A stretch of DNA of 64,000 bases from Actinoplanes sp. L3-i22 (GTDB taxonomy: Bacteria; Actinomycetota; Actinomycetes; Mycobacteriales; Micromonosporaceae): contig NZ_AP024745.1 of assembly GCF_019704555.1 (NCBI RefSeq), positions 4,038,501 to 4,102,500 of the forward strand. Direction: 5' to 3'. Of the stretch, positions 19,882 to 64,000 are shown piece after piece. Position numbers and translations under genes: made by a program. Numbering within the stretch: position 1 is the first letter of the stretch; each line of letters begins with the position of its first letter. The notes under the pieces were generated by a model. It worked only from the letters and a program-made list of their open reading frames with translations, did not search any database and had not been told where the DNA came from.

Positions 19882-21183
19882 TTGCGTACCCGGATGGTCC
19901 GGCGGGTGATCGCCGGCGTGGCCGCGATCGGCCTGGCGGTGGCGATGGCCGCCTGCGGCGGAAGCGACGACAGCAAGACCGAGGCACCCACCGCGGCCGG
20001 CGTCGACGGCGTCGACGACGGCGCGGAACTGACATTGTGGACCCGGGCGCCGCTGGAGTTCCAGGCGAAGGCGCTGGTCGACGCGTACAACAAGGCGCAC
20101 AAGAACCAGGTCAAGCTGACCATCGTCCCGAACGACGACTACGTCGCGAAGGTCGGCGCCGCGGCCGGTGCCGGCCAACTGCCCGACCTGTTCGCGGCGG
20201 ACATCGTCTACGTGCCGAACTGGACCAAGGCCGGCCTGTTCTCCGACCTGACCGACAGCATCGGCAAGCTCCCGTACGCCGACAAGATCAACCAGGGGCA
20301 TCTGCAGGCCGGCACCTACGAGGGCAAGAAGTACGTGCTCCCGTTCGTGCTCGACCTGTCGGTGATCTTCTGGAACAAGAAGCTCTACAAGGAGGCCGGC
20401 CTCGACCCGGAGAAGGGCCCGACCACCCTCGACGAATTCAAGCAGCAGGCCCTCGCCGTGCAGAAGCTGAACAAGCCGGGCGTCTACGGCAGCTACTTCG
20501 GCGGCAACTGCGGCGGCTGCAACGTCTTCACCTGGTTCCCGATGATCTGGGCCTCGGGCGAGGAGGTGATGAACCCGGAGGGCACCTCGTCGCTGCTCAA
20601 CGGACCCGCCGCGCAGAAGGTCTACAGCACCTGGCGGGACCTGCAGACCGCCGGCGCGCTCGCGCCCGGCTCCAAGGACGAGACCGGCGCCACCTGGGTC
20701 GCCGCGTTCCAGCAGAACAAGATCGGCGTGATGCCGTACCCGGCGACGTTGCTTTCCACCGCGGCGAAAACTGTCGACGTCGGCGTCACCGCGATCCCCG
20801 GCGTCAGCGGCGGCAGCTCCACCTTCGTCGGCGGTGACGGCATCGGCATCTCGAAGGACTCCAAGAAGGCCCAGCAGTCCTGGAACTTCATGTCCTGGCT
20901 GATGTCCGAGGACGCGCAGGTCAACGTGCTCGCCGCGAACAACAGCAGCGTCGCGCGCACCGACCTGTCCGACAATCAGTACGCCGCCAAGGACCCGCGC
21001 CTGGTCACGATCAACAAGGCCGCGGCGTCCCCGCAGAGCAAGACGCCGGTGTCGGTTAATTTCCAACAGGCCTTCAACGCCCCCGGCAGCCCGTGGGTCA
21101 CCCTGCTGCGCAACCAGGTCTACGGCGACGCCGGCGCCCTCGAGAAGGACAACCAGGCGCTGACGCAGGTGCTGGGTCAGTGA
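19882..21183 (+). CDS. ABC sugar transporter, solute-binding lipoprotein
   Basis: A 433-residue extracytoplasmic sugar-binding protein (family 1). The N-terminal signal peptide ends in the lipobox AMAAC, so it is membrane-anchored. The mature part shows the typical ELTLWTRAPLEFQAKALVDAYNKAH start and the FAADIVYVPNWTKAGLFSDLT and EGKKYVLPFVLDLSVIFWNKKLY segments. The start is TTG 19882, five bases after GGGAGG. An ATG four codons later is the alternative. It leads the importer operon with the two permeases. Given the GH127 genes downstream, the ligand is probably an arabino-oligosaccharide or arabinose-containing sugar. Confidence 0.92.
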   Translation: MRTRMVRRVIAGVAAIGLAVAMAACGGSDDSKTEAPTAAGVDGVDDGAELTLWTRAPLEFQAKALVDAYNKAHKNQVKLTIVPNDDYVAKVGAAAGAGQLPDLFAADIVYVPNWTKAGLFSDLTDSIGKLPYADKINQGHLQAGTYEGKKYVLPFVLDLSVIFWNKKLYKEAGLDPEKGPTTLDEFKQQALAVQKLNKPGVYGSYFGGNCGGCNVFTWFPMIWASGEEVMNPEGTSSLLNGPAAQKVYSTWRDLQTAGALAPGSKDETGATWVAAFQQNKIGVMPYPATLLSTAAKTVDVGVTAIPGVSGGSSTFVGGDGIGISKDSKKAQQSWNFMSWLMSEDAQVNVLAANNSSVARTDLSDNQYAAKDPRLVTINKAAASPQSKTPVSVNFQQAFNAPGSPWVTLLRNQVYGDAGALEKDNQALTQVLGQ

Positions 21184-21206
21184 CCGCGCTGCAGAGCCAG
21201 GGCGAG

Positions 21207-22073
21207 ATGGCAATGACGAAAAAATTCAACACCAAGAGGCGGACGTACGGCCATGGCTGGGTCTACGCCGTACCGACCGCGGTGTTCGTGTTGATATTTT
21301 TCGTCATCCCGATCGGGATCGTCGGGCGGATGTCGGTCTCCGACTGGGGACTGTTCGCCGGCTATCGCGGCATCAACGCCCCGGAGAACTTCCAGGACGT
21401 GCTCGACGACCGGCTGTTCTGGCCGGCCGTCGGGTTCACGGTCAAGTACACCCTGGTCACGACCGTGATCCTGCTGGCTCTCGCCCTCGGCCTGGCTCTG
21501 CTGGTGCAGGAATCAAACCGATGGACCGGATTCCTGCGTACGTCGTTCCTGATCCCGTCCGCACTGGGCCTGGCCTCGGCGTCGCTGCTGTTCTACGCGC
21601 TCTACTCACCGCAGAGCAGCCCGTTCGGCGAGATCTCGTTCCTCGGCACGCCGAGTTCGGCGCTCTGGTCCACCGTCGCCCTGATCGTCTGGCGGTACGC
21701 CGGCTTCTACATGCTCCTGCTGCTGGTCGGGCTGCAGGGCATCCCCGGCGACGTGTACGAGGCCGCCCGCCTCGACGGCGCCGGCCGGTTCCAGACGTTC
21801 TGGCACGTCACCGTCCCACTGATCCGCTCGTCGCTGGCGCTGTGCACGATCCTGTGCGTCACCGGCTCGCTGCTGGCCTTCGACCAGTTCTACATCCTCA
21901 CCAAGGGCGGCCCGGACAACAGCACGATCACCATCGTCCAGCTGATCTACAACATGGCGTTCCAGGGACAGAACAACCTCGGCCGGGCCGCCGCGCTGTC
22001 GATCCTGGTGCTGGCCGCTCTGCTGGTGCTCAACCTCGCGCAGTTCCGGGGCCTTCGCGGAAAGGAGAGCTGA
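21207..22073 (+). CDS. ABC sugar transporter permease 1
   Basis: A MalF-type permease of about 288 residues with six predicted membrane helices (first WVYAVPTAVFVLIFFVIPIG). The EAA loop near residue 185 (EAARLDGAGRFQTFWHVTVPLI) contacts the ATPase. ATG 21207 or 21213 is likely, with AGGGCGAG upstream. A GTG at 21180 would overlap the previous stop. No ATPase gene follows in this operon, so a shared MsiK-type ATPase encoded elsewhere is expected, as is usual in actinomycetes. Confidence 0.92.
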   Translation: MAMTKKFNTKRRTYGHGWVYAVPTAVFVLIFFVIPIGIVGRMSVSDWGLFAGYRGINAPENFQDVLDDRLFWPAVGFTVKYTLVTTVILLALALGLALLVQESNRWTGFLRTSFLIPSALGLASASLLFYALYSPQSSPFGEISFLGTPSSALWSTVALIVWRYAGFYMLLLLVGLQGIPGDVYEAARLDGAGRFQTFWHVTVPLIRSSLALCTILCVTGSLLAFDQFYILTKGGPDNSTITIVQLIYNMAFQGQNNLGRAAALSILVLAALLVLNLAQFRGLRGKES

Positions 22074-22879
22074 TGCTCCGTACGCCGAAATTCGTTCTGA
22101 CCGGAGGTCTGGCTCTTCTGTTTCTCTTCCCGATGGCGTGGGCCTCGGTCGCGTCGGTCAGCCCGCAGGCCGGCACCCGGCAGGTCACCGGCTGGGGCTT
22201 CGGCAACTACACCACGCTGGCCCACTACCAGGCCGGGATCTGGCAGTACCTGCTCAACTCGGTGGCGGTCTCGGGGATGACGGTAATTTTCACCCTCGCC
22301 GTGTCGCTGCTCGGCGGCTACGCCTTCGCGAACTTCGCGTTCCCCGGCAAGAACATTCTTTTCCTGGTCACCCTCGCGATCCTGATGGTGCCCTACGCGA
22401 CCCTGCTGATCCCGCTCTACGTGCTGCTCAACCAGCTCGGGCTGCAGAACTCGCTGGTCGGGCTGTCGCTGGTGCTGACCATGTTCCAGCTGCCGTTCGC
22501 CACGTTCCTGATGCGCATCTCGTTCGAGGCCGTACCGAAGGATCTCGCCGAGTCCGCGCAGGTCGACGGCTGCGGAAGCTTCCGCACGCTGCGGCACATC
22601 CTGGTGCCCGCGGTGAAACCCGGCCTGATCACCGTCGGGCTGTTCGCGTTCCTGGCCGCTTGGAACGATTTCATCACCCCGCTGGTCCTGATCAGCGACT
22701 CCGCCAAGCTGCCCCTCCCGCTGGCCGTGGCCAACATGCGCCAGCAGGTGATGGGCATCGTCGACTACGGCGCCACCGAAGCCGGCGTGGTCGTGCTCGC
22801 GCTTCCCTGCATCGTCCTGTTCCTCGCACTGCAGCGGCACTACGTCCGCGGCTTCATGTCCGGCGCACTCAAGGGCTGA
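22073..22879 (+). CDS. ABC sugar transporter permease 2
   Basis: A 268-residue MalG-type permease with six membrane helices and the EAA motif ESAQVDGCGSFRTLRHILVPAVKPG. The start ATG overlaps the stop of permease 1 by one base (TGATG), and AAAGGAG is a strong ribosome site. It is followed 9 bases later by the cytoplasmic GH127 gene, so import and cleavage are co-expressed. Confidence 0.92.
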   Translation: MLRTPKFVLTGGLALLFLFPMAWASVASVSPQAGTRQVTGWGFGNYTTLAHYQAGIWQYLLNSVAVSGMTVIFTLAVSLLGGYAFANFAFPGKNILFLVTLAILMVPYATLLIPLYVLLNQLGLQNSLVGLSLVLTMFQLPFATFLMRISFEAVPKDLAESAQVDGCGSFRTLRHILVPAVKPGLITVGLFAFLAAWNDFITPLVLISDSAKLPLPLAVANMRQQVMGIVDYGATEAGVVVLALPCIVLFLALQRHYVRGFMSGALKG

Positions 22880-22887
22880 TCGTCAAC

Positions 22888-24807
22888 GTGACCATTGAAG
22901 AAGCACTGACCACCGCGGAGTCCCGGACCTGGATCGAGCGTGGCGGCACCCCCGCCGCGCCCGGAAACGGCCGGCTGCGACCGCTGGGCCTGCGCGAGGT
23001 GACCCTGCGCGACGGCTTCTGGCGGCAGCGCCAGCAGACCAACCGGGCGAAAAGTTTCGCCCACATCGAGTACTGGCTGGAGAAAGCCGGCTGGCTGAAC
23101 AATTTCTCCGCCCCGCCGGAGGAACGCAGCGGGCGGGAATTCTCCGACACCGAGGTCTACAAGTTCCTCGAGGCGATGGCCTGGGAGTACGGCCGCACCC
23201 GTGACCCCGCGGTGGAGCAGCGGTACCGGCGCATCGTCGCCCGGGTCGTGGCCGCCCAGCAGCCCGACGGCTACCTCAACACCAACTTCGGGCGGCCCGG
23301 TCAGCAGCCGCGCTACACCGACCTGGAATGGGGCCACGAGCTCTACTCCTTCGGCCACTTCATCCAAGCCGGGGTGGCCGCGGCGCGCACGTTCGGCGAC
23401 GACGAACTCGTCGCCGCGGCGGTGCGCGCCGCCGACCACGTCTGCGACGTCTTCGGCCCGGGCGGCATCGCCTCGGTCTGCGGGCACGCCGAGATCGAGC
23501 CGGCGCTCGCCGAGCTCTACCGGGTCACCGGCAACCGCCGCTACCTCGACCAGGCGAAACTTTTCGTCAACCGGCGCGGGCACAAGACGCTGGCCGACAT
23601 CGAGTTCGGCCGGGCGTACTTCCAGGACGACGTGCCGATCCGCGAGGCCACGTCGCTGCGCGGGCACGCCGTGCGCGCCGTCTATCTCGCCGCGGGCGCC
23701 GTCGACGTCGCGGTGGAGACCGGCGACGGCGAGCTGCTCGGCGCGGTCGCCCGGCAGTGGCGCCACGCCGTGGCCCGGCGTACCTACCTGACCGGCGGCA
23801 TCGGGTCGCGGCATCAGGACGAGGCGTTCGGCGAAGATTTCTTTCTTCCGCCGGACCGCGCCTACTCGGAGACCTGCGCCAGCGTCGGTTCGGTCATGCT
23901 GGCCTGGCGGCTGCTGCTCGCGCAGGGCGACCCCCGCTACGCCGACCTGATCGAGCGGATCCTGTTCAACGTCATCGCCACCTCGCCGGCCGACGACGGC
24001 ACCCGGTTCTTCTACGCCAACACCCTGCACCAGCGGGTTCTCGGCACCGAGCCGTCCGCCGACACCCAGGTGCCGCGCGCGGCGTCCACCCTGCGCGCCT
24101 CCTGGTTCGAGGTTTCCTGCTGCCCGACCAACTTGGCGAGAACTTTCGCCAGCCTCGCCGCCTACGTCGCCACCACCGACGACGACGGCGTGCAGATCCA
24201 CCAGTACACCCCGTCGAGCATCACCACCACGCTGCCCGACGGCCGCGAGATCGGCCTGGAGATCGACACCGAGTACCCGGCCGACGGGCGCATCACGATC
24301 CGCGTCGTGACCAGCCCGGACACGCCATGGACGCTGTCGCTGCGGGTACCGGACTGGGCCGCCGGAGCCACCCTGGACGGTCTCGCGATCACCCGCGGTC
24401 TGGTCCAGTCCCGGCGCCGTTTCACGGCCGGCGACACGCTGGTGCTCCAGCTCCCGGTCCGCCCACGGTTGGTCGCTGCCGACGACCGGATCGATTCGGT
24501 ACGGGGTCAGGTCGCTCTCGTGCGCGGCCCGGTCGTCTACTGCCTGGAGTCCGTCGACGTGCCCCGGGGCGTCGACTTCGGGTCCCTGCGCCTGGACCCG
24601 CACACCGAGCCGGTCGACCGGGACGGCGCGGTCGTCGTGGGTTGCCGCTCCGCGACCCCGGCCGATCACGACTGGCCGTACCAGCCGGTGGCCGCCGCCC
24701 CCGGGACCGGGCCCCTGCTGAAGATTCCGCTGCGGCCCTACCACCGGTGGGCCCGCCGCGGACCGTCCACCATGCGCGTCTGGATGCCCTTAACGTCCGA
24801 AAGGTGA
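22888..24807 (+). CDS. GH127 beta-L-arabinofuranosidase, cytoplasmic
   Basis: A 639-residue enzyme of the GH127 (former DUF1680) family without a signal peptide. It has the (alpha/alpha)6 catalytic core and the metal/nucleophile residues known from Bifidobacterium HypBA1: the Glu and Cys of YSETCASVG and the Cys pair of VSCCPTN, one of which is the nucleophile. The family releases beta-linked L-arabinofuranose, for instance from hydroxyproline-rich plant glycoproteins. It is placed right after the permeases, so it probably hydrolyses imported oligosaccharide. GTG 22888 was chosen, with AAGGG 12 bases before it. At about 23043-23060 the coding sequence contains the long palindrome GGGCGAAAAGTTTCGCCC. 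Confidence 0.92.
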   Translation: MTIEEALTTAESRTWIERGGTPAAPGNGRLRPLGLREVTLRDGFWRQRQQTNRAKSFAHIEYWLEKAGWLNNFSAPPEERSGREFSDTEVYKFLEAMAWEYGRTRDPAVEQRYRRIVARVVAAQQPDGYLNTNFGRPGQQPRYTDLEWGHELYSFGHFIQAGVAAARTFGDDELVAAAVRAADHVCDVFGPGGIASVCGHAEIEPALAELYRVTGNRRYLDQAKLFVNRRGHKTLADIEFGRAYFQDDVPIREATSLRGHAVRAVYLAAGAVDVAVETGDGELLGAVARQWRHAVARRTYLTGGIGSRHQDEAFGEDFFLPPDRAYSETCASVGSVMLAWRLLLAQGDPRYADLIERILFNVIATSPADDGTRFFYANTLHQRVLGTEPSADTQVPRAASTLRASWFEVSCCPTNLARTFASLAAYVATTDDDGVQIHQYTPSSITTTLPDGREIGLEIDTEYPADGRITIRVVTSPDTPWTLSLRVPDWAAGATLDGLAITRGLVQSRRRFTAGDTLVLQLPVRPRLVAADDRIDSVRGQVALVRGPVVYCLESVDVPRGVDFGSLRLDPHTEPVDRDGAVVVGCRSATPADHDWPYQPVAAAPGTGPLLKIPLRPYHRWARRGPSTMRVWMPLTSER

Positions 24808-24817: not shown

Positions 24818-27800
24818 ATGATCGACAACTCGATGTCCCGTCGTCGGCTGATGCAGTCCGCGGCCGTCGTCGCCGGCACCACCGTGGCCGGTTCGATGGT
24901 GAATGTTTCCGCCGCGGTCGCCTCCCCAGGTCTTGCTTCCGCAGGTGTGGCCGCCAGCCCCCGCGTCAACGGCCTGCCCGTTCCGTCCTCCTGGCGGGCG
25001 GTGCCGTTCAACCTCGACCAGGTCACTCTGCAGCCGAGCATCTTCACCGAGAAGCGCGACCGGATCCTCGCCTACGCCCGCGCCTACCCGGCGGATCGGA
25101 TCCTCAGCAACTTCCGGGCCGCCGCCGGCCTGGACACTCTCGGCGCCCAGCCGCCCGGCGGGTGGGATGACGCCACCGGCAACCTGCGCGGGCACTACAG
25201 CGGGCACTTCATCTCGATGCTGGCCCAGGCATGGGCGGGCACCGGTGAGGCCGTCTTCAAGGACAAGCTCGACTACGTCGTGGGCGCGCTCAAGCAGTGC
25301 CAGGACACGTGGACCGCGCAGGTCGGCGTGCCCGGCACGCCGCCACCGGCGCCGACCTGGGCCGGTGGGCTGGTGCTCTCCGGCGACGGCCAGTACGTCG
25401 GCCTGCCGGACGCCACCGTCGACGGGTTGAAAGAAATCACCATCGCGATCCGGGTGCAGCTTTCCGAGCTCCGCACCTGGTCGAGAGTCTTCGACTTCGG
25501 CACCGGGACCACGGTCAACATGTTCCTGACCGTGGACGCCGGCAGCGGACCACGATTCGCCATCACCACCGGCGGCAGCGGCAACGAGCAGCGGATCAGC
25601 GGGACCACGCCGCTGCCGGAGAACCAGTGGGTCCATCTGGCGGTCACCCTCGGCGGCGGTGTCGGCACCCTGTACGTGGACGGCGCGGTTGCCGGCACCA
25701 ACACCGCGATGACCCTGACGCCGGCCGACCTGGGCGCCCCGAAGAACAACTGGATCGGCCGCTCCCAGTACGGCGACGCCCTGCTCAAGGGCACCGTCGA
25801 CGAGTTCCACCTGTTCGACCGCGCCCTGACCGCGGCGGACATCACCACCCTGGCCACCACCCCAACCGGTGCCGGCAGCGCCATCGCCCCGGCCGTCATC
25901 TCAGGCGGCGCCGGCAACGCCCCGGGCACCACCTCAGGCGGCGCTGGGAGCCGCACTTCGGCCGTCGCTTCAGCCGCCATCCCGGCCGGTGCCGGCAGCG
26001 CCACCTTGGCCGCCGCTTCAGTCGGCGCCGGGAGCGCCACCCTGGCCGCCGCTTCAGTCGGCGCCGGGAGCGCCACCCCGGCGGCCGTTTCAGCCGGCGG
26101 CGGCAGCGCCGCCCCGGCCGCGGATGACGGCGTGCACGGAAACCTTGCCTGGTACCGGTTCGACGAGACGTCCGGCACCGTCGTTGCGGACTCCTCCGGC
26201 CGGCACTGGGACGCGGCGGTCGTCACCGGCCCGGGCGGCGCGCCCGGCCCGAGCCACGCCGGCTTCCTCGCGGCGTACCCGGAAACGCAGTTCATCCAGC
26301 TCGAGCAGTACACGACCTACCCGGCGATCTGGGCGCCCTACTACACCTGCCACAAGATCATGCGGGGCCTGCTGGACGCGCACACCCTGACCGGCAACGC
26401 GGTCGCCCTGGAGATCGCCCGCGGCATGGGCGACTGGGTGCACAGCCGCCTGTCGGTGCTGCCCCGCGAACAGCTCGACCGGATGTGGGCGCTCTACATC
26501 GCCGGCGAGTACGGCGGCATGAACGAGGTGATGGCGGATCTTTTCGCCCTCACCGGCGACGAAAAGTTCCTTCAGACCGCCCGCTGCTTCGACAACACCG
26601 CGCTGCTCGCCGCGTGCGTGGCCAGCACCGACGCCCTCGACGGTCGGCACGCCAACCAGCACATCCCGCAGTTCCTCGGCTACCTGCGGATGTACGAGAA
26701 CGGCGACGGCCGGGACTACCGCACGGCGGCGAAGAACTTCTTCGGCATGGTCGTGCCGCACCGCACCTACGTGCACGGCGGAACCGGCCAGGGTGAGGTG
26801 TTCCGCAAGCGCGACGCGATCGCCGCGACCATCGTGACCAGCACGAACGCCGAGTCCTGCGCGGCGTACAACATGCTCAAGGTGGCGCGTAACCTGTTCC
26901 TGCACGCGCCGGACGCGGACTTCTTCGACTACTACGAGAAGGCGCTGGTCAACCAGATCCTCGCGTCCCGCCGGGACGCCGAGAGCACCACGAACCCGCT
27001 GGTCACCTACATGGTGCCGGTCGGTCCCGGTGCCCGCCGCGACTACGGCAACATCGGTACCTGCTGTGGTGGCACCGGGTTGGAGAACCACACCAAGTAC
27101 CAGGACTCCATCTACTTCGCCTCACCCCGTGGCGACGTGCTCTACGTCAATCTGTACATACCGTCCACATTGGACTGGAAAGCGCGCGGCCTCACTGTCA
27201 CCCAGGCCGGTGACTATCCACGCGCCGAGAGCAGCACGCTGACCATCACCGGCCACGGCCGGCTCGACCTGCGGCTGCGTGTGCCGTCCTGGGCCGCCGC
27301 CGGGTTCGCCGTGAAGATCAACGGCCGCGCGGTGAAGGCGTCCGGATGCGGCTCCGACGGGTACCTCAGTCTCGCGCGGACCTGGCGTTCCGGCGACCGG
27401 GTGGAGATTTCCTTCCCCTATGCGCTGCACGTCGAGAAGGCCCTGGACGACCCGACCCTGCAAGCCCTGATGAACGGCCCGATCGCGCTGATCGCCAAGT
27501 CGGCGCAGACCGATTACGTGTCCCGGTCCTGGTACTCGTCGCTGCCGCTGTCCGGCGACCTGACCCCGGTCGCGGGCGGGTTCACGCCGTTCCACTCCGG
27601 CGACACCGATGCCTACCACGCGTACTTCCGCCGCGCGGAACCACGGATCGTCTTCGACGGCCAGGACTCCGGCGTCCCCAACCGCGCCGACTCCGCGGGC
27701 ACGACGTTCCTGGACCGGCTCTGGGCGGGCGCGCCGTTCGCCGACCGGCGGGCCTTCGAGCGAGCGGTCAACTCCACCGCCCGCGTGTGGTCCAAGAGCG

Positions 27801-27862
27801 GTCTGCTCAGCCGTACCGAAATCTCCGAAGTCTCCGCAGCCGCCGGAAGGGCCTATCGGTGA
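24818..27862 (+). CDS. Secreted GH127-type arabinofuranosidase with inserted LamG module
   Basis: A 1014-residue protein with a Tat-type signal (SRRRLMQSAAVVAG). Catalytic sequence of the DUF1680/GH127 type begins at about residue 58 (FNLDQVTLQPSIFTEKRD) and is interrupted after ALKQCQDTW. Residues 175-345 are a LamG/concanavalin-like domain, followed by a 90-residue Ala/Gly/Ser repeat linker. The catalytic part resumes at about residue 480 (FLAAYPETQFIQLEQY...YYTCHKIMRGLLDAH) and contains the SCAAYNMLKVARNLF and GTCCGGTGLENH motifs with the Cys pair. The segment LAWYRFDETSGTVVADSSG, usually the first strands of LamG, comes after the linker, so the module looks permuted. It probably trims arabinose from plant glycans outside the cell. 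Confidence 0.88.
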   Translation: MIDNSMSRRRLMQSAAVVAGTTVAGSMVNVSAAVASPGLASAGVAASPRVNGLPVPSSWRAVPFNLDQVTLQPSIFTEKRDRILAYARAYPADRILSNFRAAAGLDTLGAQPPGGWDDATGNLRGHYSGHFISMLAQAWAGTGEAVFKDKLDYVVGALKQCQDTWTAQVGVPGTPPPAPTWAGGLVLSGDGQYVGLPDATVDGLKEITIAIRVQLSELRTWSRVFDFGTGTTVNMFLTVDAGSGPRFAITTGGSGNEQRISGTTPLPENQWVHLAVTLGGGVGTLYVDGAVAGTNTAMTLTPADLGAPKNNWIGRSQYGDALLKGTVDEFHLFDRALTAADITTLATTPTGAGSAIAPAVISGGAGNAPGTTSGGAGSRTSAVASAAIPAGAGSATLAAASVGAGSATLAAASVGAGSATPAAVSAGGGSAAPAADDGVHGNLAWYRFDETSGTVVADSSGRHWDAAVVTGPGGAPGPSHAGFLAAYPETQFIQLEQYTTYPAIWAPYYTCHKIMRGLLDAHTLTGNAVALEIARGMGDWVHSRLSVLPREQLDRMWALYIAGEYGGMNEVMADLFALTGDEKFLQTARCFDNTALLAACVASTDALDGRHANQHIPQFLGYLRMYENGDGRDYRTAAKNFFGMVVPHRTYVHGGTGQGEVFRKRDAIAATIVTSTNAESCAAYNMLKVARNLFLHAPDADFFDYYEKALVNQILASRRDAESTTNPLVTYMVPVGPGARRDYGNIGTCCGGTGLENHTKYQDSIYFASPRGDVLYVNLYIPSTLDWKARGLTVTQAGDYPRAESSTLTITGHGRLDLRLRVPSWAAAGFAVKINGRAVKASGCGSDGYLSLARTWRSGDRVEISFPYALHVEKALDDPTLQALMNGPIALIAKSAQTDYVSRSWYSSLPLSGDLTPVAGGFTPFHSGDTDAYHAYFRRAEPRIVFDGQDSGVPNRADSAGTTFLDRLWAGAPFADRRAFERAVNSTARVWSKSGLLSRTEISEVSAAAGRAYR
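25880..26115. repeat. 36-bp tandem repeat in the GH127-LamG linker
   Basis: Copies of a unit near GGCGCCGGGAGCGCCACC followed by TTGGCCGCCGCTTCAGTC repeat in frame and encode (V)GAGSATLAAAS-type peptides. Unit length is a multiple of three. The repeat builds a flexible linker between the LamG insert and the rest of the catalytic domain. Confidence 0.85.
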
Positions 27863-30800
27863 GAAAGTTTCCTTTGGTCGTGGCGGCAGGTTTGTTGCTG
27901 ACCGTCCTGTCGCCGGTGGCCGCGGACGCGGCGCCGAACGCCGACACCCCCTATCCCACCTTCAAGGGCGCCGCTGACCCGGTGCCGGACGAGCGCACCG
28001 GCTACCACGTCCGCAACCAGCTGCAGGCGATCTTCGACGCCGACGTCGCGGCCGGCGCCGGATCGAGCACCGACGACGACTTCTGGATCGACCGGATGCT
28101 GGCCCGCACCGGCAACGCGCCCGGCGGCTCCAACGGCGACGCGAACCAGTACCTGTTCAGCCGCGGTCGCGCGGTGTTCATGAAGACCCACCAGCCCGGC
28201 ACGCTCGGGTTCGGCGGCGAGGTCGCCTACATCGAGACGATCGCCGGCGGACAGGGTGCCTACACGATCACCGCCTCGGTCGGCGGCGCCGACGTGTCGC
28301 TCGCCGAGGACGCCGCGCAGCGCAAGCAGACGCCGAGCTACTGGCGCGGTGTGTTCACCGGCGGCGGGCTCAAGGTGGTGGAGACCAAGTACCTCACCGA
28401 CGACAATGTCGCGGTCACCGGCCTGGACCTGACCAGCACGACCGGGTCCGCGAAGGACGTCACGCTGACGGCGACATCTTCCTTCGCCAAGACGGCGGCC
28501 GACGGCAACGAGCTCACCGGCGCGGCCCGTGCGTTCAACCAGCTGACCACGGTCTTCCCGCGGTTCTCCGGGGACGGCTTCGCGCCGGTGGACGGGACGC
28601 TGCGCCGTACCGTCGCGGTTCCGGCCGAGGGAACCGCCCGGACCAAGGTGCAGCTCGGCTTCGTGACCAGGGAGAACCCGGGGGCGGGGACCGAGTACGA
28701 GCACTACCGCGATCTCACGCCGGGCGCGGCGTACTCCGAGCACGTCACGGCCTACAACCGGTGGTGGGCCGACAACGTGCCCTACCTGGACACGCCGGAG
28801 AACAACATCGACAAGACGCTGTTCTACCGCTGGTGGCTGATGCGCTACAACTTCCTCGACGCCGACCTGCCCGGCAACGACTACCAGTTCCCGACGTCGA
28901 TGGAGGGCGTGCTCGGCTACAACAACGCGATCGTGCTGACCACCGGCATGTTCGTCGACGACCTCAAGTACTTCCGCGACCCGGTCTACTCCTATGGCCC
29001 GTGGGTGTCCGCCGGCGAGGTGGCGAAAAGTTCCAAATACGTCGACAACCCCGGCGACCCGGCGAACTGGTCCAACAGCTACACCGAGTACATCTCCGAG
29101 GCGGCGTGGCGGTCCTACCAGCTGCACGGCGGGCCGGCGGCGATCGCCGGCAACCTGGCCAGGTACGCCGAGAACGACGTCAAGGGACTGCAGCAGGCCT
29201 ACGACTTCGACGGCAACGGCCTGATCGAGTACAACTGGGGCGCGATGACCGGCAACGACGCCGACGCGGTGTCGTTCCACTGGAAACCCGGCTACATGGA
29301 CCGCACCGAGAACGCCTACCTCTACTCAAACGCGCTCGCCTCGGCGAACGCCTACCGGACCGCGGGGAACACCGCGAAGGCCGCCGAGATGGAAAGTTTC
29401 GCCGCGAGCATCAAGGCCGCGGTCCTGAAGTACCTGTGGGAACCCAAGCGCAGCGCCCCGGACCAGATGGGCCTGGACGGCAACCTGCTCAAGCACCGGT
29501 TGGTTTCCTCCAACGAACTGGTCCCGTGGAAGGAAATCAACAACTACTACCCGTTCTCGGTCGGCCTGATGCCCAAGCCCGGCGACGCCGACTACACCCA
29601 GCCCTACGTCGAGGCGCTGCGCCTGTTCGCCGACGACACGCAGTACCCGATCTTCCCGTTCACCACGGCCAACCAGGCCGACAAGGCCGCCGCGGCGGCC
29701 GCCGGTGAGCCCGGCAGCAACAACTTCTCGATCATCAACTCGACCGTGACGTTCCGGATGCTCTCCTCGGTGCTGCGCAACTACCCGAACCAGTACATCG
29801 ACGCCGAGTGGTACAAGAAGCTGCTCTACTGGAACGCCTGGGCCCAGTACCAGGGCAACGGCGACAACCGGTACCCGGACCAGAACGAGTTCTGGGCCGA
29901 CGGCTCACCCGCGAACGGCGGGAGCGTCGACTACCGCTCGTGGATCCACCACACCATCCTCGGCGCCACCAACTTCACCATGATCGAGGACGCGATGGGC
30001 CTGCGCCCGCGCGACGACGCCAAGGTGGAGCTCGACCCGATCGACATCGGCTGGGACCACTTCACCGCCAACAACATCCGCTACCGCGACAAGGACCTGA
30101 CGATCGTCTGGGACAAGCCCGGTGGCACCCGCCACTACGGCGCCGACGTCCCCGAGGGCTACTCGGTCTACCTCGACGGCAAGCTCGCCTTCACCGCCGA
30201 CAAGCTGGGCAAACTCGTCTACGACCCGGCCACCGGCGAGGTTCAGGCGGCCGCCGGGGTGACCGTCACGTCCACGGCGAAAATTTCCGTCAAGGCGCCG
30301 GCCGACGTGCGGTTCGCGGCCGACGACCGGATCGTCGACGTGATGGCGAAGGCGGGCGCCGACATCGCGCCGGAAAGCACCGGCAGCGCCGACGTCGCCC
30401 AGGGCCGCCCGGCCACCGCCACCTTCTCGGCCGCGGGCCGGGCACCGCAGGGCGCGGTCGACGGCACCACCGTCAACGAGCCGTTCTGGGGCACCGCCGG
30501 CTCACCGAACGCCACCGACGCGATCGACCTCGATCTGCAGGGCGAACGCGACATCGACGACGTGCGCGTGTACTTCTACAACACCTCGACCAGCGCCACC
30601 GTCGCCGGCTACGCGCCACCCGCGCAGTTCACGGTCGGCTACGACGACGGCGACGGCTGGAAGACCGTGCCCGGCCAGAGCCGCAGCCCGGCCTACCCGC
30701 GCGGCAACCTCAACCGGATCCGCTTCCCGTCGCTGAAGGCCACCAAGCTGCGGATCACCGTCCAGCACGCGCCCGGGGCCAAAACCGGAATCAAAGAAAT

Positions 30801-40740: not shown

Positions 40741-40926
40741 CGCCGGCCAGCCGGAGCGAACGCCGGCCCGCCGGAGCGACCGTCGAACGGCCGCCCGCCG
40801 GAGCGACCGTCTGACGGCGGCCGGCCGGAGCGAGGGTCCGGCGGCAGTCCGCCAGAGCGCCGATTTGACGGTGGCAGGCCAGAGCGACCGCCGGGCGGCG
40901 GCCTGCCTGGACGGCGGAAATTTCCT
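40741..40926. repeat. Six degenerate ~27-bp repeats between convergent genes
   Basis: The core GCCGGCCGGAGCGACCGTC-like word recurs six times (CCGGAGCG or CCAGAGCG at about 40751, 40771, 40798, 40826, 40852 and 40879). The region ends with the palindrome GGAAATTTCC at about 40916-40925. No gene is visible. It separates the chemoreceptor and PucR stops. Confidence 0.8.
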
Positions 40927-46227: not shown

Positions 46228-46838
46228 CCGCGGCCGGTGCGCTGCGGGCGGTCATCGGCGTGGTGACGGTGCTGGCGCTGGCGGCGTGCGACCCGCCTGC
46301 GCCGCCGGCCGGCACGCCGATGACCAGGCCGCCGGTTTCCGTGCCGATCGCCCCGGACGCCGATGAGCTCGCCTACCTGGCTCACATGATCGAACATCAT
46401 CGACAGGCACTGCGGATGGCGGCGATGCTTTGCGGAGACGGCCAGGTGCCGTACCGGATAAAAAATATCGCCGACCACATGGCGGCGACGCAGGCCGCCG
46501 AGATCACGGACATGACGGAGTTCCTGAATGCGTGGGCCAAGCCGGTGCGCGTGCACCCGGGCGGCATGCTGACCGAGGCGCAGCTGAGTTCGTTGAAAGT
46601 TTCCTCCGGTCCGGCCGCCGGCCGGCGCTTCCTCGAACTCATGATCATTCACCATGAGGACGCCGCCGAGATGTCCGTGGCGATGCTGCCGCAAGCGCGC
46701 AACCCGTGGGTGATCAGCCTGGCCCGGCACGTCATCGCCGATCAGCGGCCCGAGATCGCCACCATGCGCCGAGTCCTGACCGCCGGCGGCGGCGCGGCTC
46801 CCGCTCCGGGAAAGGTGGTCCGACCAGGTGTCGCGTGA
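46224..46838 (+). CDS. DUF305-family lipoprotein
   Basis: A 204-residue lipoprotein with lipobox VLALAAC. The body is a DUF305 (ferritin-like four-helix) domain with the paired motifs MIEHHRQALRMAAML and MIIHHEDAAEMSVAML. These His-rich helices are often linked to metal, especially copper, handling. GTG 46224 overlaps the oxidase stop, so translation is coupled. This suggests a helper for copper supply or protection of the amine oxidase, by inference. Confidence 0.88.
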   Translation: MTAAGALRAVIGVVTVLALAACDPPAPPAGTPMTRPPVSVPIAPDADELAYLAHMIEHHRQALRMAAMLCGDGQVPYRIKNIADHMAATQAAEITDMTEFLNAWAKPVRVHPGGMLTEAQLSSLKVSSGPAAGRRFLELMIIHHEDAAEMSVAMLPQARNPWVISLARHVIADQRPEIATMRRVLTAGGGAAPAPGKVVRPGVA

Positions 46839-48292: not shown

Positions 48293-48477
48293 CCTGCGCT
48301 TACTCGGCCGTCTGCGGGGTGTTGGAAAGTTTCTGCCGCGACGCCGGGTGCGCCTGCTCTCGGCGGCGGAAGGTTTCTGTCGCGACGACGGCGGGCCTGC
48401 TCTGCACGGCGGAAAGTTTCTGCTCTGCGCGGCGGAATGTTTCTGCCGCACCGCACTCCGTCCGGGACGGCTGACCG
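48293..48477. repeat. Array of four GGAAnGTTTCTG repeats in a convergent gap
   Basis: Four copies of GGAAAGTTTCTGCCGCGAC or close variants lie at 48324-48342, 48368-48386, 48411-48429 and 48434-48452. Spacing is 44, 43 and 23 bp, with similar CGCCTGCTCT spacers. Each contains the GAAA-N-TTTC palindrome or a one-base variant. No gene is visible here. Confidence 0.9.
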
Positions 48478-49612: not shown

Positions 49613-50727
49613 CCGCGGCTTTCGACTCGCGGGTCGATATCGGGCGGTTGCGCTCCGGGCACGGCGTGAAGTGGGGCGCGCTGCCGCCCGGCACGCTCGG
49701 CGCCTGGGTGGCCGACATGGACTTCCCGGTCGCGCCGGCGATCCTGGCCCGGCTGCGAGCGGTGACCGATTTCGGGTATCCGCACTGGCCGGGCGGCGAT
49801 CCGGTGGTGGCCGCGTTCGAGGAGCGGATGGCGCACCGGCACGGCTGGTCGCCGGAACCCGGGCGGACCAGGGTGTTCACCGATCTGATCCAGGTGTTGC
49901 AGGTGATGATCGAGACGGCCACCGCGCCCGGCGACGGCATCGCCGTGCACGTGCCGAACTATCCGCCGTTTCTGGCCAGCATCGTCCGGGCCGGGCGCCG
50001 GATCGTGCCGCTGGACCCGGACGCCTTCGACCCGGGTGCGCTGCGTGACTGCACGATGCTGGTGCTGGTCAATCCGCACAACCCGACCGGCCGGGTGTTC
50101 CGCCCGGAGGAACTTTCCGCCATGGCCGAGGCCGCGCGCGAGCACGACGTGACGGTGCTTTCCGACGAGATCCACGCCGACCTGGTCTACGCCGGGCACC
50201 GGCACATCCCGTTCGCCTCGCTCGGCCCGGACGCGGCGGCGCGCACCGTCACCACCACGTCGGCGACGAAAAGTTTCAACATCGCCGGGCTGCGCTGCGC
50301 GGTGGCGCACATCGGCCCGGATCGGATCCGGGCGGCGCTGGACCGGCAGCCGCTGGACATCTTCGGCCAGCCGGGCACGCCGGGCCGGGTCGCCACGGTC
50401 GCCGCCTGGCGCGAGGCCGACGACTGGCTCGACGGACTGCTCGGCACCCTGGCCGCGAACCGCGACCGGGTGACGCGGTGGGTGGCCACGCTGCCCTGGG
50501 ACAGCGGGTTCCGCGCGCCGGAGGGCACCTATCTGGCCTGGCTGGACTGCGCGGGCGGGCCGTTCGGCCCGGATCCGGCCGCATTCCTGGAGAAGGCCGC
50601 CGGCGTACGGCTCGGGCGCGGCGCCGAGTTCGCCGAGCACACCGCGTCGTACGTCCGGATCAACTTCGCCACCAGCCCGCAGGTGCTCACCGAGATCCTG
50701 GAGCGAATCACCGGTGCATTGACATGA
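49609..50727 (+). CDS. PatB/MalY-type PLP C-S lyase
   Basis: A 372-residue fold-type I PLP enzyme. The N-terminus (FDSRVDIGRLRSGHGVKWG...WVADMDFPVAPAI) is diagnostic for PatB/MalY cystathionine beta-lyases. The PLP Lys lies in TTTSATKSFNIAGLRCA, with VNPHNPTGRVF and LSDEIHADLVY as cofactor contacts. It would cleave cystathionine, cysteine or cysteine-S-conjugates. Coupling with a mycothiol-type DinB protein hints at processing of thiol adducts, by inference. GTG 49609 overlaps the DinB stop. Confidence 0.92.
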   Translation: MTAAFDSRVDIGRLRSGHGVKWGALPPGTLGAWVADMDFPVAPAILARLRAVTDFGYPHWPGGDPVVAAFEERMAHRHGWSPEPGRTRVFTDLIQVLQVMIETATAPGDGIAVHVPNYPPFLASIVRAGRRIVPLDPDAFDPGALRDCTMLVLVNPHNPTGRVFRPEELSAMAEAAREHDVTVLSDEIHADLVYAGHRHIPFASLGPDAAARTVTTTSATKSFNIAGLRCAVAHIGPDRIRAALDRQPLDIFGQPGTPGRVATVAAWREADDWLDGLLGTLAANRDRVTRWVATLPWDSGFRAPEGTYLAWLDCAGGPFGPDPAAFLEKAAGVRLGRGAEFAEHTASYVRINFATSPQVLTEILERITGALT

Positions 50728-54612: not shown

Positions 54613-54869
54613 GGCCAGAACGATGGCGGGCGGCCCGCGAGCCGCGCTGAATCCTCACTCCATCAGTGGCGTGTCCTGCGGTTTCTCGGTCGGGGTGACC
54701 GTTGGTGTGGCAGCGGGCGAACTCAGAGAGGGACGGGCGGGAGTCGGCGGAGGAATATTTCCGCCGCCTGCGCCGCCCGTCCGCCGAGACCACGCCGTGC
54801 CGTCAGGCGCAGCACCGTCTGAAGAAAACTTTCCCACCGTCCGCAGGCACCCCGGCGCGGCTCGGCGCC
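54613..54869 (-). promoter_or_regulatory. 257-base gap upstream of the ADP-ribosyltransferase
   Basis: No gene is seen. It contains GGAATATTTCC (54752-54762) flanked by GGCGGA/GCCGCC symmetry, and GAAAACTTTCCC (about 54827-54838), two members of the dispersed palindrome family, in the likely promoter region of the toxin-like gene. Confidence 0.5.
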
Positions 54870-55783: not shown

Positions 55784-56770
55784 TCACCCGCGCCGCCGGG
55801 CGGTGCTGCTGCTGCTGCTGGTGGTCGTCGGCGAAGACTTTCTTCGGGCGGGCGGCGCCACGCGGCGCCCACGGACCGCCTCGTAGGTCGCGTCCAGCGC
55901 CGTCCGGGTCTCCTGATAGGTGCGCTGGGCGACGCCGACGAACACGCAGTCGATCACGGTGAGCTGGGCGAGCCGGCTGGCCATCGCGCCGGACCGGAAC
56001 GTCGTCTCCCGCGCGGCGGTGGTCAGCACCAGGTCGGCGACCTTGGCGATCGGCGACTTCGGGAAGTTGGTCAGCGCGACGGTGACCGCGCCGTGCCGCT
56101 TGGCCTCGGTGAACGCCTCGATGGTGTCGGTGGTCGTGCCGGTGTGCGAGATGCCGAACGCCACGTCGCGTTTGTCGAGCAGGGCGGCGCTGGTCAGGGC
56201 CCGGTGCATGTCGCTCCACGCGTACGAGATCCGGCCGATGCGGTGCAGTTTCTGCTGGAAGTCGTCGGCGACGAAGGCACTGGCGCCCACGCCGTAGATG
56301 TCCACCCGCCGGGAGTCGGCCACCACCTCGACGACGTGCTCGAGGACCGCGATGTCGATCTGTGCGGCGGTGTCCTCGACCGCGCGGGCGTCGGCGAAGG
56401 CAATTTTCTTCACCACCTGGGCGAGGTCGTCGCCCGGGCTGATGTCGCTGCCCACCGGCGTGTCGTCGGCGCCGGCCTCGGCGGCCCGCCCGGCCTCGGC
56501 GGCGAGGGTCAGGCGCAGCTGGGGGTAGCCGGTGAAGCCCATCGCCCGGCAGAATCTGATTACCGTGGTCTCGCTGGACGCGGCCCGTTCGGCCAGCTCG
56601 GTGATGGTGAGCCGGGCCGCGGTGGCGGCCTGGTCGATGATCACCTGGGCCACCCGCCGCTCGGCGGGCGACAGCGCCGGCAGCAGGCCCCGCGCCCGGA
56701 CCACCGTCTCGGCCAGTGGCGGGCCGGCCGGTGGCGGCGGGGGTGGGGTGGTGCGTTTGCGGCTCGTCAT
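55784..56770 (-). CDS. RpiR-family regulator (MurR-like)
   Basis: A 328-residue regulator. The RpiR helix-turn-helix lies at residues 30-90 (ALSPAERRVAQVIIDQAATAARLTITELAERAASSETTVIRFCRAMGFTGYPQLR). A SIS phosphosugar-binding domain fills about 140-270 (VDIYGVGASAFVADDFQQKLHRIG). The C-terminus ends in a Ser/Thr/Arg-rich tail (SSPTTTSSSSSTARRRG). In the operon with murQ and divergent from the kinase, it fits the MurR role of sensing MurNAc-6-P or GlcNAc-6-P. GGAGG stands 7 bases before the ATG. Confidence 0.92.
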   Translation of the reverse strand: MTSRKRTTPPPPPPAGPPLAETVVRARGLLPALSPAERRVAQVIIDQAATAARLTITELAERAASSETTVIRFCRAMGFTGYPQLRLTLAAEAGRAAEAGADDTPVGSDISPGDDLAQVVKKIAFADARAVEDTAAQIDIAVLEHVVEVVADSRRVDIYGVGASAFVADDFQQKLHRIGRISYAWSDMHRALTSAALLDKRDVAFGISHTGTTTDTIEAFTEAKRHGAVTVALTNFPKSPIAKVADLVLTTAARETTFRSGAMASRLAQLTVIDCVFVGVAQRTYQETRTALDATYEAVRGRRVAPPARRKSSPTTTSSSSSTARRRG

Positions 56771-56794
56771 GAAGAGAGCCTCCGGCCAGTCATG

Positions 56795-56812
56795 GAGAAA
56801 AGTTTCCTTTGC
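56795..56812. promoter_or_regulatory. Candidate MurR-like operator 1
   Basis: The reverse strand reads GCAAAGGAAACTTTTCTC, matching the site at 61467-61484 in 14 of 18 positions. It lies between the divergent RpiR and kinase genes. It also belongs to the dispersed GAAA-TTTC palindrome family, so its specificity is uncertain. Confidence 0.45.
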
Positions 56813-58322: not shown

Positions 58323-59672
58323 TCATGCGCCGGGCCGCGGGTAGAGCAGGTAGGGCCGCCGCCGCTGCTCGAAGGCGGCGAGCTCCGCGGACCACGCTCC
58401 GACGACCTCGGCGGCCGAGGCGCCGGCGTCGACCATTGTGCGGAGCCGGGCCGAGCCGGTGAGCAGGTCGATCCAGTAGCGGGCACCGTCCAGCCGCCAG
58501 GCGAAGGACGTTTCCTTCCGGGCCTCGACCAGCATCGACACCGCGGTGCTGATCGGGTCGTAGCGGCTCTGGTCGGAAACTTTCACCTCGATCCCGGCAC
58601 ACGGCCGGCCGGCGAACTTGTTGAACGTCGGCGTGAAGTACGCCTCGCGGAACTGCGCACCCGGCAGCTTCAGCGCCGCCATCCGGTCGCACCAGTGGTA
58701 GTCGAGGCCCGGTCCGCCGATCAGCTCGAACGGGCGGGTGGTGCCGCGCCCCTCGGACAGCGACGACACACCCTCGAACAGGCCGGTGCCGGGATAGACG
58801 ACCGCGGTGTCCGGGGTGGGCATGTTCGGGCTCGGCAGCACCCAGGGAAGGTCGGTGTCGCCGGCGAACAGGTGCCCGTGCCATCCGCTGCAGGAAATTA
58901 CCTTCAGGTCGGCCTTGCGTCCCGCGTCGGTGGGTAGGAATTCTCCGTTGTAGAAGCGCGCCAGTTCGCCGACCGTCATACCGTGCTGCTGGACGATCTT
59001 CAGGCGGCCCACGCCGGAGGTGTAGCCGTCGGTCATCATCGGTCCGTACGCGCGCCCGCCGATCGGGTTCGGCCGGTCCAGGACCAGGTAGCGCAGGCCG
59101 AGCCGGGCGGCCGCGGCCATCGAGTCGTAGAGCGTGTAGATGTAGGTGTAGAACCGGGCGCCGACGTCCTGAATGTCGAACACGACGGTCTGCACGCCGG
59201 CAGCGGTGAAGATTTGCTTCCACCTGTCCTGGGTCGCGCCGTAGGCGTCGTAGACGGTCAGCCCGGTGCGCGCGTCGATGCCGGTGCCCTCGCTGCCGCC
59301 GGCCTGCGCGGAACCACGGAAGCCGTGCTCGGGGCCGAAGACGCCACCGATGGTGACCCCGGCGGCGTGCATCCGGTCGACCAGGTGCCGGTACTCCCGG
59401 TCCACCCCGGTCGGGTTGGAGACCACGCCGATGCGCTCACCCTTGATCGCGTCCCAGCCGCTGGCGGCGAGCTTGTCCATCCCGGTCCGGATCGGGATGC
59501 GGGGGAGCAGGCCGGGCTTTCCGGCTGCGGGTACGGCACCGGCTGCCCCGGCGGCCGGTCCTCGGGCACCGCCGGCCACGTCCGCTGCGCGCGACGCGGG
59601 CGAGCTCAGCCCGGCGCCGGTCATCCCGGCCGCGCCGGCCACACCCGCTGCGAGCAGAGCGCGCCGGTTCAT
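58323..59672 (-). CDS. namZ: Secreted exo-beta-N-acetylmuramidase NamZ (DUF1343, GH171)
   Basis: A 449-residue exported protein with a signal peptide (RRALLAAGVAGAAGMTGAG, possibly Tat-type). The DUF1343 body shows GVVSNPTGVDREYRHLVDRM, FGPEHGFRG, VFDIQDVGARFYTYIYTL, VLDRPNPIGG and SLSEGRGTTRPFELIG, all characteristic. The B. subtilis homologue NamZ (YbbC) removes terminal MurNAc from peptidoglycan fragments. Its ATG overlaps the nagZ stop (ATGA), so GlcNAc- and MurNAc-releasing exo-enzymes are made together, as in Bacillus. Confidence 0.92.
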   Translation of the reverse strand: MNRRALLAAGVAGAAGMTGAGLSSPASRAADVAGGARGPAAGAAGAVPAAGKPGLLPRIPIRTGMDKLAASGWDAIKGERIGVVSNPTGVDREYRHLVDRMHAAGVTIGGVFGPEHGFRGSAQAGGSEGTGIDARTGLTVYDAYGATQDRWKQIFTAAGVQTVVFDIQDVGARFYTYIYTLYDSMAAAARLGLRYLVLDRPNPIGGRAYGPMMTDGYTSGVGRLKIVQQHGMTVGELARFYNGEFLPTDAGRKADLKVISCSGWHGHLFAGDTDLPWVLPSPNMPTPDTAVVYPGTGLFEGVSSLSEGRGTTRPFELIGGPGLDYHWCDRMAALKLPGAQFREAYFTPTFNKFAGRPCAGIEVKVSDQSRYDPISTAVSMLVEARKETSFAWRLDGARYWIDLLTGSARLRTMVDAGASAAEVVGAWSAELAAFEQRRRPYLLYPRPGA

Positions 59673-61466: not shown

Positions 61467-61484
61467 GCGAAGGAAACATTCATC
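61467..61484. promoter_or_regulatory. Candidate MurR-like operator 2
   Basis: GCGAAGGAAACATTCATC matches the reverse strand of the site at 56795-56812 in 14 of 18 positions. It lies in the divergent region between nagZ and the serine hydrolase gene, which suggests a shared regulator for the recycling genes. Confidence 0.45.
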
Positions 61485-61514
61485 CTCTACCAATCGACGT
61501 ATGGAGAGGCGTTG

Positions 61515-63380: not shown

Positions 63381-63394
63381 AACGGGAGCGGATC

Positions 63395-64000
63395 ATGCAT
63401 AGATTGAGCCGGCGCGGATTACTCCAAGGCGCGGCGGGCGTCGCCGCCACGGGGGCGCTCGGCGGCTGCGCCATGGGTGGTGACGACGCCAAGGGCGACA
63501 GTGCCAAGGGCGCGACCAGCGCGAACAATCCGCTCGGCGTCAAGGAGGACGCGCCGCTCGAGGTGGTCATCTTCAACGGTGGCTTCGGCGAGGAGTACGC
63601 CAAGGCCCACGAGGCGCTGTACCAGCAGCGCTACCCGAAGGCCGAGATCAAGCACTCGGCGACCCAGCAGATCGCCGAGACCCTGCAGCCCCGGTTCGTC
63701 GCCGGCGACCCGCCGGACGTGATCGACAACTCGGGCGGCAGCCAGATCGACTTCAACGGCCTGGTCTCCCAGGGCGCGCTGACCGACCTCGGTGAGCTGC
63801 TCGACGCGCCCAGCCTCGACGACCCGAACAAGAAGGTCCGCGACACGCTGCTGCCGGGAATCGTCGACGTAGGCACGTACGACGGAAAGTTTCTGACCTT
63901 GAACTACGCCTACTCGGCGTACGGCATCTGGTACTCGAAGAAACTTTTCGACGCGAAGGGCTGGCAGTACCCGAAGACCTGGGACGAGATGATCGCCCTC
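63395..64000 (+). CDS. ngcE: NgcE-like ABC amino-sugar-binding lipoprotein (truncated by window)
   Basis: The first 202 residues of a solute-binding lipoprotein. The Tat/lipo signal (RRGLLQGAAGVAATGALGGC) is followed by NPLGVKEDAPLEVVIFNGGFGEEYAKAHEALY, a start highly characteristic of NgcE, the GlcNAc/chitobiose-binding protein of Streptomyces, then PPDVIDNSGGSQIDF and YAYSAYGIWYSKKLFDAKGW. Permease genes should follow to the right. Placed with murQ, namZ, nagZ and a MurK-like kinase, its ligand may be MurNAc or GlcNAc-MurNAc rather than chitobiose. It contains two GAAA-TTTC family palindromes at 63885-63893 and about 63942. Confidence 0.88.
   Translation, partial: MHRLSRRGLLQGAAGVAATGALGGCAMGGDDAKGDSAKGATSANNPLGVKEDAPLEVVIFNGGFGEEYAKAHEALYQQRYPKAEIKHSATQQIAETLQPRFVAGDPPDVIDNSGGSQIDFNGLVSQGALTDLGELLDAPSLDDPNKKVRDTLLPGIVDVGTYDGKFLTLNYAYSAYGIWYSKKLFDAKGWQYPKTWDEMIAL

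Follow-up and report, generated by a model that had tools for sequence, protein, structure and literature searches.

The DNA analyzed here, called the window, is a 64,000-nucleotide stretch (G000:C1:4038501-4102500) of the 12,014,766-bp chromosome of Actinoplanes sp. L3-i22 (G000), a soil isolate matched best in GTDB by A. liguriensis (87.6% average nucleotide identity; PMC8530027). Genes for GH127, GH43 and GH3 proteins, a chemoreceptor, a copper amine oxidase and NamZ are found there, and a short palindrome, in its exact form GAAANTTTC, recurs through them and between them. An earlier note, made from the sequence alone, had listed 13 exact copies; all 13 are present where it placed them. Its expectation of about 0.06 copies was reproduced by 100 dinucleotide-preserving shuffles (mean 0.06, maximum 1), although the G+C of the window is 70.6% and not the 72% or so it had estimated. 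The variants with a 0- or 2-base centre are also genuine, their positions having been off by at most 3 bases. By spacer length, from 0 to 7, the window has 1, 13, 8, 0, 3, 0, 1 and 0 palindromes. Their near-absence upstream of about 21 kb was borne out, since no spacer-1 or spacer-2 site occurs before 23 kb. With the full 16-bp motif described below (matrix score >12, our threshold unless stated), 2 of the 84 window sites precede 20.7 kb, at 4364 and 18592. The other 82 lie in 20763..64000, which is the part inside the window of a sharp-edged island (island I) running from about 20.8 to about 121.6 kb in window coordinates, with an end near 121617 (G000 4,160,117) and about 1.7 sites per kb. 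In 5-kb bins there are 0-1 sites over 4.005-4.055 Mb, 4 in the next bin, 5-14 in 19 of the 20 bins of 4.060-4.160 Mb (1 in the remaining bin), and 0-4 beyond.

The spacer-0, -1 and -2 variants are forms of one 16-bp palindrome composed of the half-sites GRMGRAAA and TTTYCKYC, with consensus GRMGRAAATTTYCKYC. Expectation-maximisation started from spacer-0 or spacer-2 seeds gave this same palindrome, and from the spacer-1 seed a mixture of the shifted forms of this palindrome resulted; we read the spacer-1 form as the same site with the degenerate R position taken by one G and one A. The scoring matrix comes from a fit to island I, although islands II, the further dense zones described below, entered the first fit. 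Refits to island I, islands II and the islands of two other genomes, G066 and G031, returned a nearly constant (C)GRMGRAAA followed by TTTYCKYC(G), the second core A being either A or G in G066 and G031:C137; these refits are not independent discoveries, because all start from the same matrix. As the matrix had been symmetrised, palindromy was tested without it, by asking how often TTYC..C comes after the half-site G..GRAA. A partner at offset 2 was found for 112 of 570 half-sites in island I (56 palindromes) and for 114 of 804 in islands II, compared with 2 of 313 in a control stretch of 126 kb; the counts were 28, 32 and 2 at offset 1, and 10, 6 and 0 at offset 3. The main form of the site is therefore 16 bp long and 15 bp is a minor one. 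Two GAAA-N4-TTTC palindromes outside the island (18567-18578 and 19734-19745) flank a LacI-family gene (18658-19692) and look like its operators. LacI operators were rejected as an account of the motif, as these two carry a central CG and represent a different one.

Codon usage does not account for the sites. The 85 kb of coding sequence (CDS) in island I contain 144 sites, against 16.2 +- 3.2 after synonymous codons were shuffled within genes, and at threshold 16 there are 89 against 3.5. In non-island DNA of L3-i22 the figures are 27 against 22.8 (502 kb of sampled CDS), and in other Actinoplanes 10 against 11.7 (252 kb). The earlier note had argued that codon or peptide selection is insufficient and had proposed a codon-shuffled null; counts far over that null rule codon usage out as the cause. 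The palindrome occurs in all three frames, as had been claimed, the 27 exact GAAANTTTC copies of island I being divided 7/2/7 by frame with 11 outside gene calls. It is also found in genes and intergenic DNA alike: 145 of the 178 island I sites are coding and 33 intergenic, in an island that is 82% coding and 18% non-coding, so that there is no preference for spacers. Here 'intergenic' is approximate, because the genes were called with a home-made GC-frame caller that misses some of them, such as a 419-residue open frame at 37435-38694. The full motif is biased in frame, with its first G at codon position 3 in 120 of the 145 coding sites; the favoured frame is the one that requires the fewest A/T third positions, and this bias leaves the excess unexplained because the excess stands after the codon shuffle. 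Placement within genes is uniform (quintiles 30, 31, 28, 36 and 20; Kolmogorov-Smirnov p 0.21) and spacing is near-Poisson (of 177 gaps, 18 are no longer than 60 bp, where 17.3 would be expected), and the spacing test on island I gave no 10-11-bp helical phasing beyond the coding period of 3. The pattern fits a protein-binding site selected for coverage, not position.

The sites of the window illustrate this layout. At the left edge, the strong sites begin with the pair GACGAAAAAATTCAAC (21215..21230, score 20.3) and GTTGATATTTTTCGTC (21290..21305, 21.2), followed by GACGGTAATTTTCACC (22279..22294, 21.5). One GH127 gene contains two spacer-2 palindromes, at 23049 (site 23046..23061, 19.1) and 23556 (23553..23568, 22.1), and a second GH127 gene has GACGAAAAGTTCCTTC (26558..26573, 22.8). 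The form GAAAGTTTC is present at 27863 in intergenic DNA (27860..27875, 13.2), at 29392 (29388..29403, 20.0), 38274 (38271..38286, 17.7) and 46595 (46592..46607, 21.1), outside gene calls at 48325 (48321..48336, 18.3) and 48412 (48408..48423, 18.6), and at 63885 (63881..63896, 15.3), where relatives were aligned. The full consensus is matched by GAAAATTTC at 30279 (30276..30291, 25.5) and 37959 (37956..37971, 23.8), and by the spacer-0 palindrome GAAATTTC at 40917 (40913..40928, 25.0). There are copies of GAAACTTTC at 35633 in the GH43 gene (35630..35645, 20.9), at 58576 in the NamZ gene (58572..58587, 18.3) and at 44721..44729; the last, with a best score of 11.6, is the only one of the 13 exact copies that does not exceed 12. 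The remaining exact copy, GAAATTTTC at 36631, scores 20.6 (36628..36643). Further spacer-2 palindromes are located at 40344 in the chemoreceptor gene (40341..40356, 15.8), 42353 (42350..42365, 22.2), 50268 (50265..50280, 23.1), 54824 (54821..54836, 14.4), 56797 (56794..56809, 15.6) and 63940 (63937..63952, 22.9, also with relatives aligned). Other strong 16-bp sites are GAAGATAACTTTCGCC (39183..39198, 20.6), GGAGGAACTTTCCGCC (50106..50121, 20.9), GAAGGCAATTTTCTTC (56396..56411, 21.5) and GCAGGAAATTACCTTC (58890..58905, 20.5).

Island I is one of several. The chromosome has 101 exact GAAANTTTC copies against 10 for the reversed control, and 82 of them fall within 3.5-7.8 Mb. The positions listed cluster in two dense zones, at 4.06-4.16 and at 6.88-7.25 Mb, with small groups besides; the positions reported by the genome searches are the first places only, the counts being complete. 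Some isolated copies are ordinary background, since many of 60 relatives also show a mild excess of GAAAGTTTC alone over the reversed control. Zones that behave like island I were found at 6.885-6.900, 6.950-7.085, 7.12-7.16 and 7.22-7.25 Mb. Between 3.5 and 7.8 Mb there are more islands, some of them single operons, and the intervening DNA that was sampled is near chance level. The small islands, with gene functions judged by eye from the sequence without a family search, comprise an ammonia-lyase/flavoprotein/ligase group (3.833-3.838 Mb), sugar-nucleotide genes (4.329-4.331 Mb), an acyltransferase linker (5.193-5.194 Mb), an ABC/hydrolase group (5.220-5.226 Mb), an aldehyde-dehydrogenase/aminotransferase group with a spacer array (5.904-5.909 Mb), a urea-carboxylase-like operon (6.541-6.552 Mb) and a 4094-residue synthase (7.756-7.764 Mb). 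Site arrays also occupy unconstrained DNA, such as a spacer of 30-bp units and an enzyme linker. The spacer array (L055 18335-18888; G000 5,908,335-5,908,888) has 10 palindrome sites in about 560 bp of tandem 30-bp units. In the linker of an apparent dehydrogenase-complex acyltransferase (L142 3284-4332; G000 5,193,284-5,194,332), repeated short peptides correspond to palindrome copies in the DNA, as though protein free of constraint had been enlisted as a carrier of sites.

The confinement of the islands found to 3.5-7.8 Mb, opposite a parS cluster near 12.00 Mb, would fit marks of a chromosome domain, read by a protein of the MatP, Noc or SMC-loader kind with a role in organising the terminus half. 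Canonical parS matches (GTTTCACGTGAAAC) differ from the island motif and lie elsewhere, 12 of 15 at 11.79-12.01 Mb, in a cluster (G000 11,793,942-12,010,225) near the contig end, which places the origin there. However, coverage is discontinuous, with long gaps and islands down to the size of an operon, and 64 of 67 Actinoplanes genomes are at background though all must segregate the same kind of chromosome. The sites, about one per 600 bp, are also far denser than matS sites, which lie tens of kb apart. We consider domain marks very unlikely, and the segregation site suggested in the earlier note is unlikely on the same facts: many islands, some operon-sized, most of the genus at background and parS elsewhere.

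Among the 67 Actinoplanes genomes, the relaxed pattern GNNGRAANNTTYCNNC occurs 184 times in L3-i22, 112 times in G031 (A. liguriensis), 30 times in G066 and 4-24 times in the other 64, with 2-11 occurrences for the reversed controls. The first two are clear outliers and G066 barely one, and all three carry the island. Site density is 1.68 per kb in L3-i22, 1.50 in G066 (60-kb island stretch) and 1.35 in G031. The exact consensus is found 30 times in L3-i22, 11 times in G031 and 0-5 times in the others, with matches in 21 other Actinoplanes genomes; in a sample of 394 genomes of the class, L3-i22 among them, no other genome exceeds 4. No island was found in 20 stretches of 15 other Actinoplanes genomes, 18 of them around exact matches (13 genomes) and the rest syntenic stretches of G022 and G080, each with 1-5 sites; the nearest approach, in G021, is 4 sites within about 330 bp.

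The copies of island I in G066 (contig C24) and G031 (C137) are syntenic but rearranged, and the sites of G066 end in a segment that matches the left edge near 21 kb of the window. Among aligned L3-i22 sites, 44 of 92 score >12 in G066 and 42 of 87 in G031, against 1 of 27 in G086, 3 of 20 in G014, 2 of 20 in G010 and 2 of 20 in G073, although overall identity is comparable (0.838 and 0.849 for the first two, 0.80-0.83 for the site-poor relatives). Third-position A/T is kept more inside sites than outside. Relative to codon-matched neighbours, retention exceeds the neutral expectation in G066 (odds ratio 1.82, z 2.8) and G031 (2.11, z 3.7) and is not significant in G010 (0.70), G014 (1.18), G086 (2.14, z 1.0) or G073 (0.49). 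Conservation at synonymous positions, which the earlier note had put forward as a check, thus speaks for the sites, their loss being slower than that of matched codons in the two island-bearing relatives. Sharing is unequal: 48% of L3-i22 sites are present in the others and 64-71% of theirs in L3-i22. With the stronger sites of L3-i22, this means that L3-i22 gained or improved sites or that the others weakened theirs. Of the 9-mer at 63885, G031 has an exact copy and G066 one with a single mismatch, and it is disrupted in G014, G068, G067, G086, G084 and G023; in four of these (G068, G067, G086 and G084) the differences fall solely at third codon positions. We infer the direction of change at this site. 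In an operon tree of 17 rows, the three site-bearing copies form a clade (100/99) within the genus.

One contig, G031:C84, suggests from its alignments that the presence of sites may depend on place rather than gene. All 6 of its sites aligned to non-island DNA of L3-i22 (7.198-7.216 Mb) are missing there (for example, score 25.6 against -20.9), 4 of 6 aligned to island DNA (7.137-7.139 Mb) score >12 in both, and, near the border of the next island (7.223-7.232 Mb), this holds for 1 of 7 aligned sites. The first segment is only 77% identical to its L3-i22 copy, and a different source for it is therefore possible.

Such a xenologue-like operon, with sites in G031 and none in its L3-i22 counterpart, would be expected if the islands were relics of horizontal transfer from a lineage in which the palindrome was genome-wide, as an uptake or repair signal or a methylation site, and now keep its fading mark. 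The sharp edges of the islands and their location at 3.5-7.8 Mb point the same way, as do the weaker sites of G031 and G066, the absence of islands from genomes equally close in core DNA, and the fetched stretches of G086, G014, G010 and G073, which hold orthologues for parts of island I only. However, no donor with a genome-wide motif was seen among the 394 sampled class genomes or the 67 Actinoplanes, and sites are retained better than codon-matched neighbours. Density is similar in the three species though 48-78% of aligned sites are shared, and the operon tree nests the site-bearing copies as one clade inside the genus. We regard a transfer relic as rather unlikely. The recently acquired segment of the earlier note is not supported for the main island either, which is common to two other species at about 84-85% identity, with an identical left edge in one; the island may have been acquired long ago or passed from one species to another.

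Comparison with known systems yielded several partial likenesses, and we saw none among the kinds compared that combines all the features found; the matches listed in a search of open-licence PMC literature contained no description of such palindrome islands. HIP1 (GCGATCGC), an 8-mer of high frequency across cyanobacterial genomes, is tied to methyltransferases in the part of the source available (PMC4390886), and no paper on selection for HIP1 was among the literature matches listed. It resembles our motif, as far as that part goes, in being a short, very densely repeated palindrome of unsettled function, and a HIP1-like motif linked to DNA methylation, repair or recombination could be proposed for Actinoplanes. 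However, the island motif is a degenerate 16-mer confined to islands in, so far, three Actinoplanes genomes, and the 27 sites against 22.8 in non-island CDS show no genome-wide high frequency. Degenerate outer bases and a half-site spacing that varies, mainly 16 bp with a minority of 15 bp, are unlike a methyltransferase target. This explanation is highly improbable, and the methyltransferase site that had also been listed in the earlier note is unlikely.

Gbn, a GATC-binding nucleoid protein of Streptomyces, occupies GATCWT in >2,800 regions along the chromosome, according to the available part of its description (PMC9239103). Like the binder that we suppose, it is a sequence-specific actinobacterial nucleoid protein with thousands of sites; its motif is different, the GATCWT core being absent from the consensus, and that part of the source describes no islands. 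The stoperators of L5-type mycobacteriophages, as presented in the sections available (PMC9283540), are asymmetric 13-mers in promoters and short intergenic spaces of the phage genome, oriented with transcription. Many copies of one repressor site over a region, silencing it, is a shared property; in contrast, the island motif is symmetric, chromosomal and mostly intragenic (145 of 178 sites in coding sequence).

A similar core, GGAAA-N-TTTCC, is that of the ROK-family regulator CsnR, whose operator, in the excerpt consulted, is a palindrome overlapping the transcription start of a chitosanase gene (PMC3048496). The published construct carries TTAGGAAACTTTCCTAA, a stretch that we read as the operator. 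Since CsnR binds a related palindrome and several small islands each correspond to one operon of catabolic appearance (judged by eye), the sites might be operators or road-blocks inside genes for an ordinary regulator whose catabolic regulon is unusually large. Against this, the CsnR operator, as described there, is a promoter operator and not a dense intragenic array, whereas the islands have many sites per operon, uniform within genes and with no preference for spacers, and site-bearing G031 segments have site-free counterparts in L3-i22. An ordinary regulator is very improbable. Two loci outside islands (L003 1497-1512 and L006 1501-1607) have isolated GAAANTTTC copies beside apparent secreted-hydrolase genes, and these copies may be operators of the ordinary ROK or LacI kind; the L003 site, TTAGGAAACTTTC, resembles the palindrome of the CsnR construct, so far as the latter is given in the excerpt (PMC3048496).

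The interpretation that we prefer is that the palindromes are sites of one dimeric, sequence-specific, nucleoid- or chromatin-like protein, probably a silencer of accessory operons; on the sequence evidence, we give it an even chance. Of the alternatives offered in the earlier note, a nucleoid-protein site is the one that stands, and it fits best a degenerate 16-bp palindrome with near-Poisson spacing that covers genes and spacers island-wide. The protein would bind the 16-bp (sometimes 15-bp) sites packed at about 1.7 per kb over whole accessory operons and, by oligomerisation, would coat the marked operons or bridge them so that they form a closed domain. Their expression would thereby be silenced or conditioned, much as that of AT-rich DNA is by Lsr2 and H-NS, the address being a specific site written into coding DNA via synonymous changes. 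The accessible part of a paper on xenogeneic silencers treats them as readers of AT (PMC7002338). Lsr2/CgpS, H-NS, MvaT and Rok likewise have accessory DNA marked for a nucleoid protein. What they read is DNA rich in AT (and, for CgpS, a 10-nt AT-rich motif as well), whereas here the mark is a specific palindrome, and at the 20-kb scale there is no drop in G+C, which is 0.700-0.714 in island I and 0.700-0.736 in its flanks (0.707 of called bases in the G031 island stretch).

Several observations weigh against a dedicated nucleoid protein. No convincing binder was found among 29 annotated proteins (some outside island I), several of which are regulators. An expansion of Lsr2 is not supported as the cause, as none is specific to the three site-bearing genomes (Lsr2-domain matches: 4 in L3-i22, 4 in G066, 3 in G031, 3 in G014 and 4 in G010). 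The z-values for retention are moderate, and G066, besides having sites that are weaker than those of L3-i22, as are those of G031, has a genome-wide count barely above the others (30 against 4-24) and not one exact consensus match. In the core tree G031 and G066 are sisters (98/99) and L3-i22 stands unresolved beside G014; the deep forks of this tree are without resolution, and the placement of G080, G015 and G018, on a very long branch most likely due to opposite-strand loci, was not used. At one core locus the distance from L3-i22 to G080 and G014 is about that to G066, yet both have background counts, so that island loss or transfer must be assumed. Non-island counts are slightly high at threshold 10 (79 against 65.0, standard deviation 7.6) and slightly low at threshold 6 (335 against 379, standard deviation 18.7); as they waver around the shuffle, there is no strong excess or avoidance there. 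The 11 of 27 exact GAAANTTTC copies outside gene calls in island I exceed the non-coding share of 18%, and thus either coding constraint keeps perfect copies scarcer within genes or the caller misses genes. Finally, about 1.2 of the 12.0 Mb of L3-i22 was read base by base, much of it picked where site matches pointed.

Two observations on candidate DNA-binding families were made alongside. L3-i22 has an extra 147-residue open frame with an Lsr2 domain (L170; G000 6,730,014), beside three copies apparently shared by relatives. The Fis-type domain HTH_8 (PF02954) was found in 0 of 8 Actinoplanes genomes and in 9 of 14 controls, with 150 of 215-290 candidates scored per genome.

Bacterial silencing of accessory genes is regarded as a reading of AT-richness. 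In the islands of L3-i22 the palindrome looks instead like a sequence-coded address for a putative DNA-packaging or silencing protein, and the islands offer an obvious bait, a definite prediction and natural controls, namely sister-species segments with and without sites. The wider proposal, of a chromatin system with operon-sized silent domains written in DNA, in which a dense operator evolves through synonymous changes and genes are marked inside a domain and unmarked outside it, is one that we advance more tentatively, as possible but short of probable. If it is true, chromatin-like domains would be encodable by synonymous sites, some clusters of rare codons in high-GC genomes would be explained, and there would be a handle on the silent metabolism of actinomycetes.

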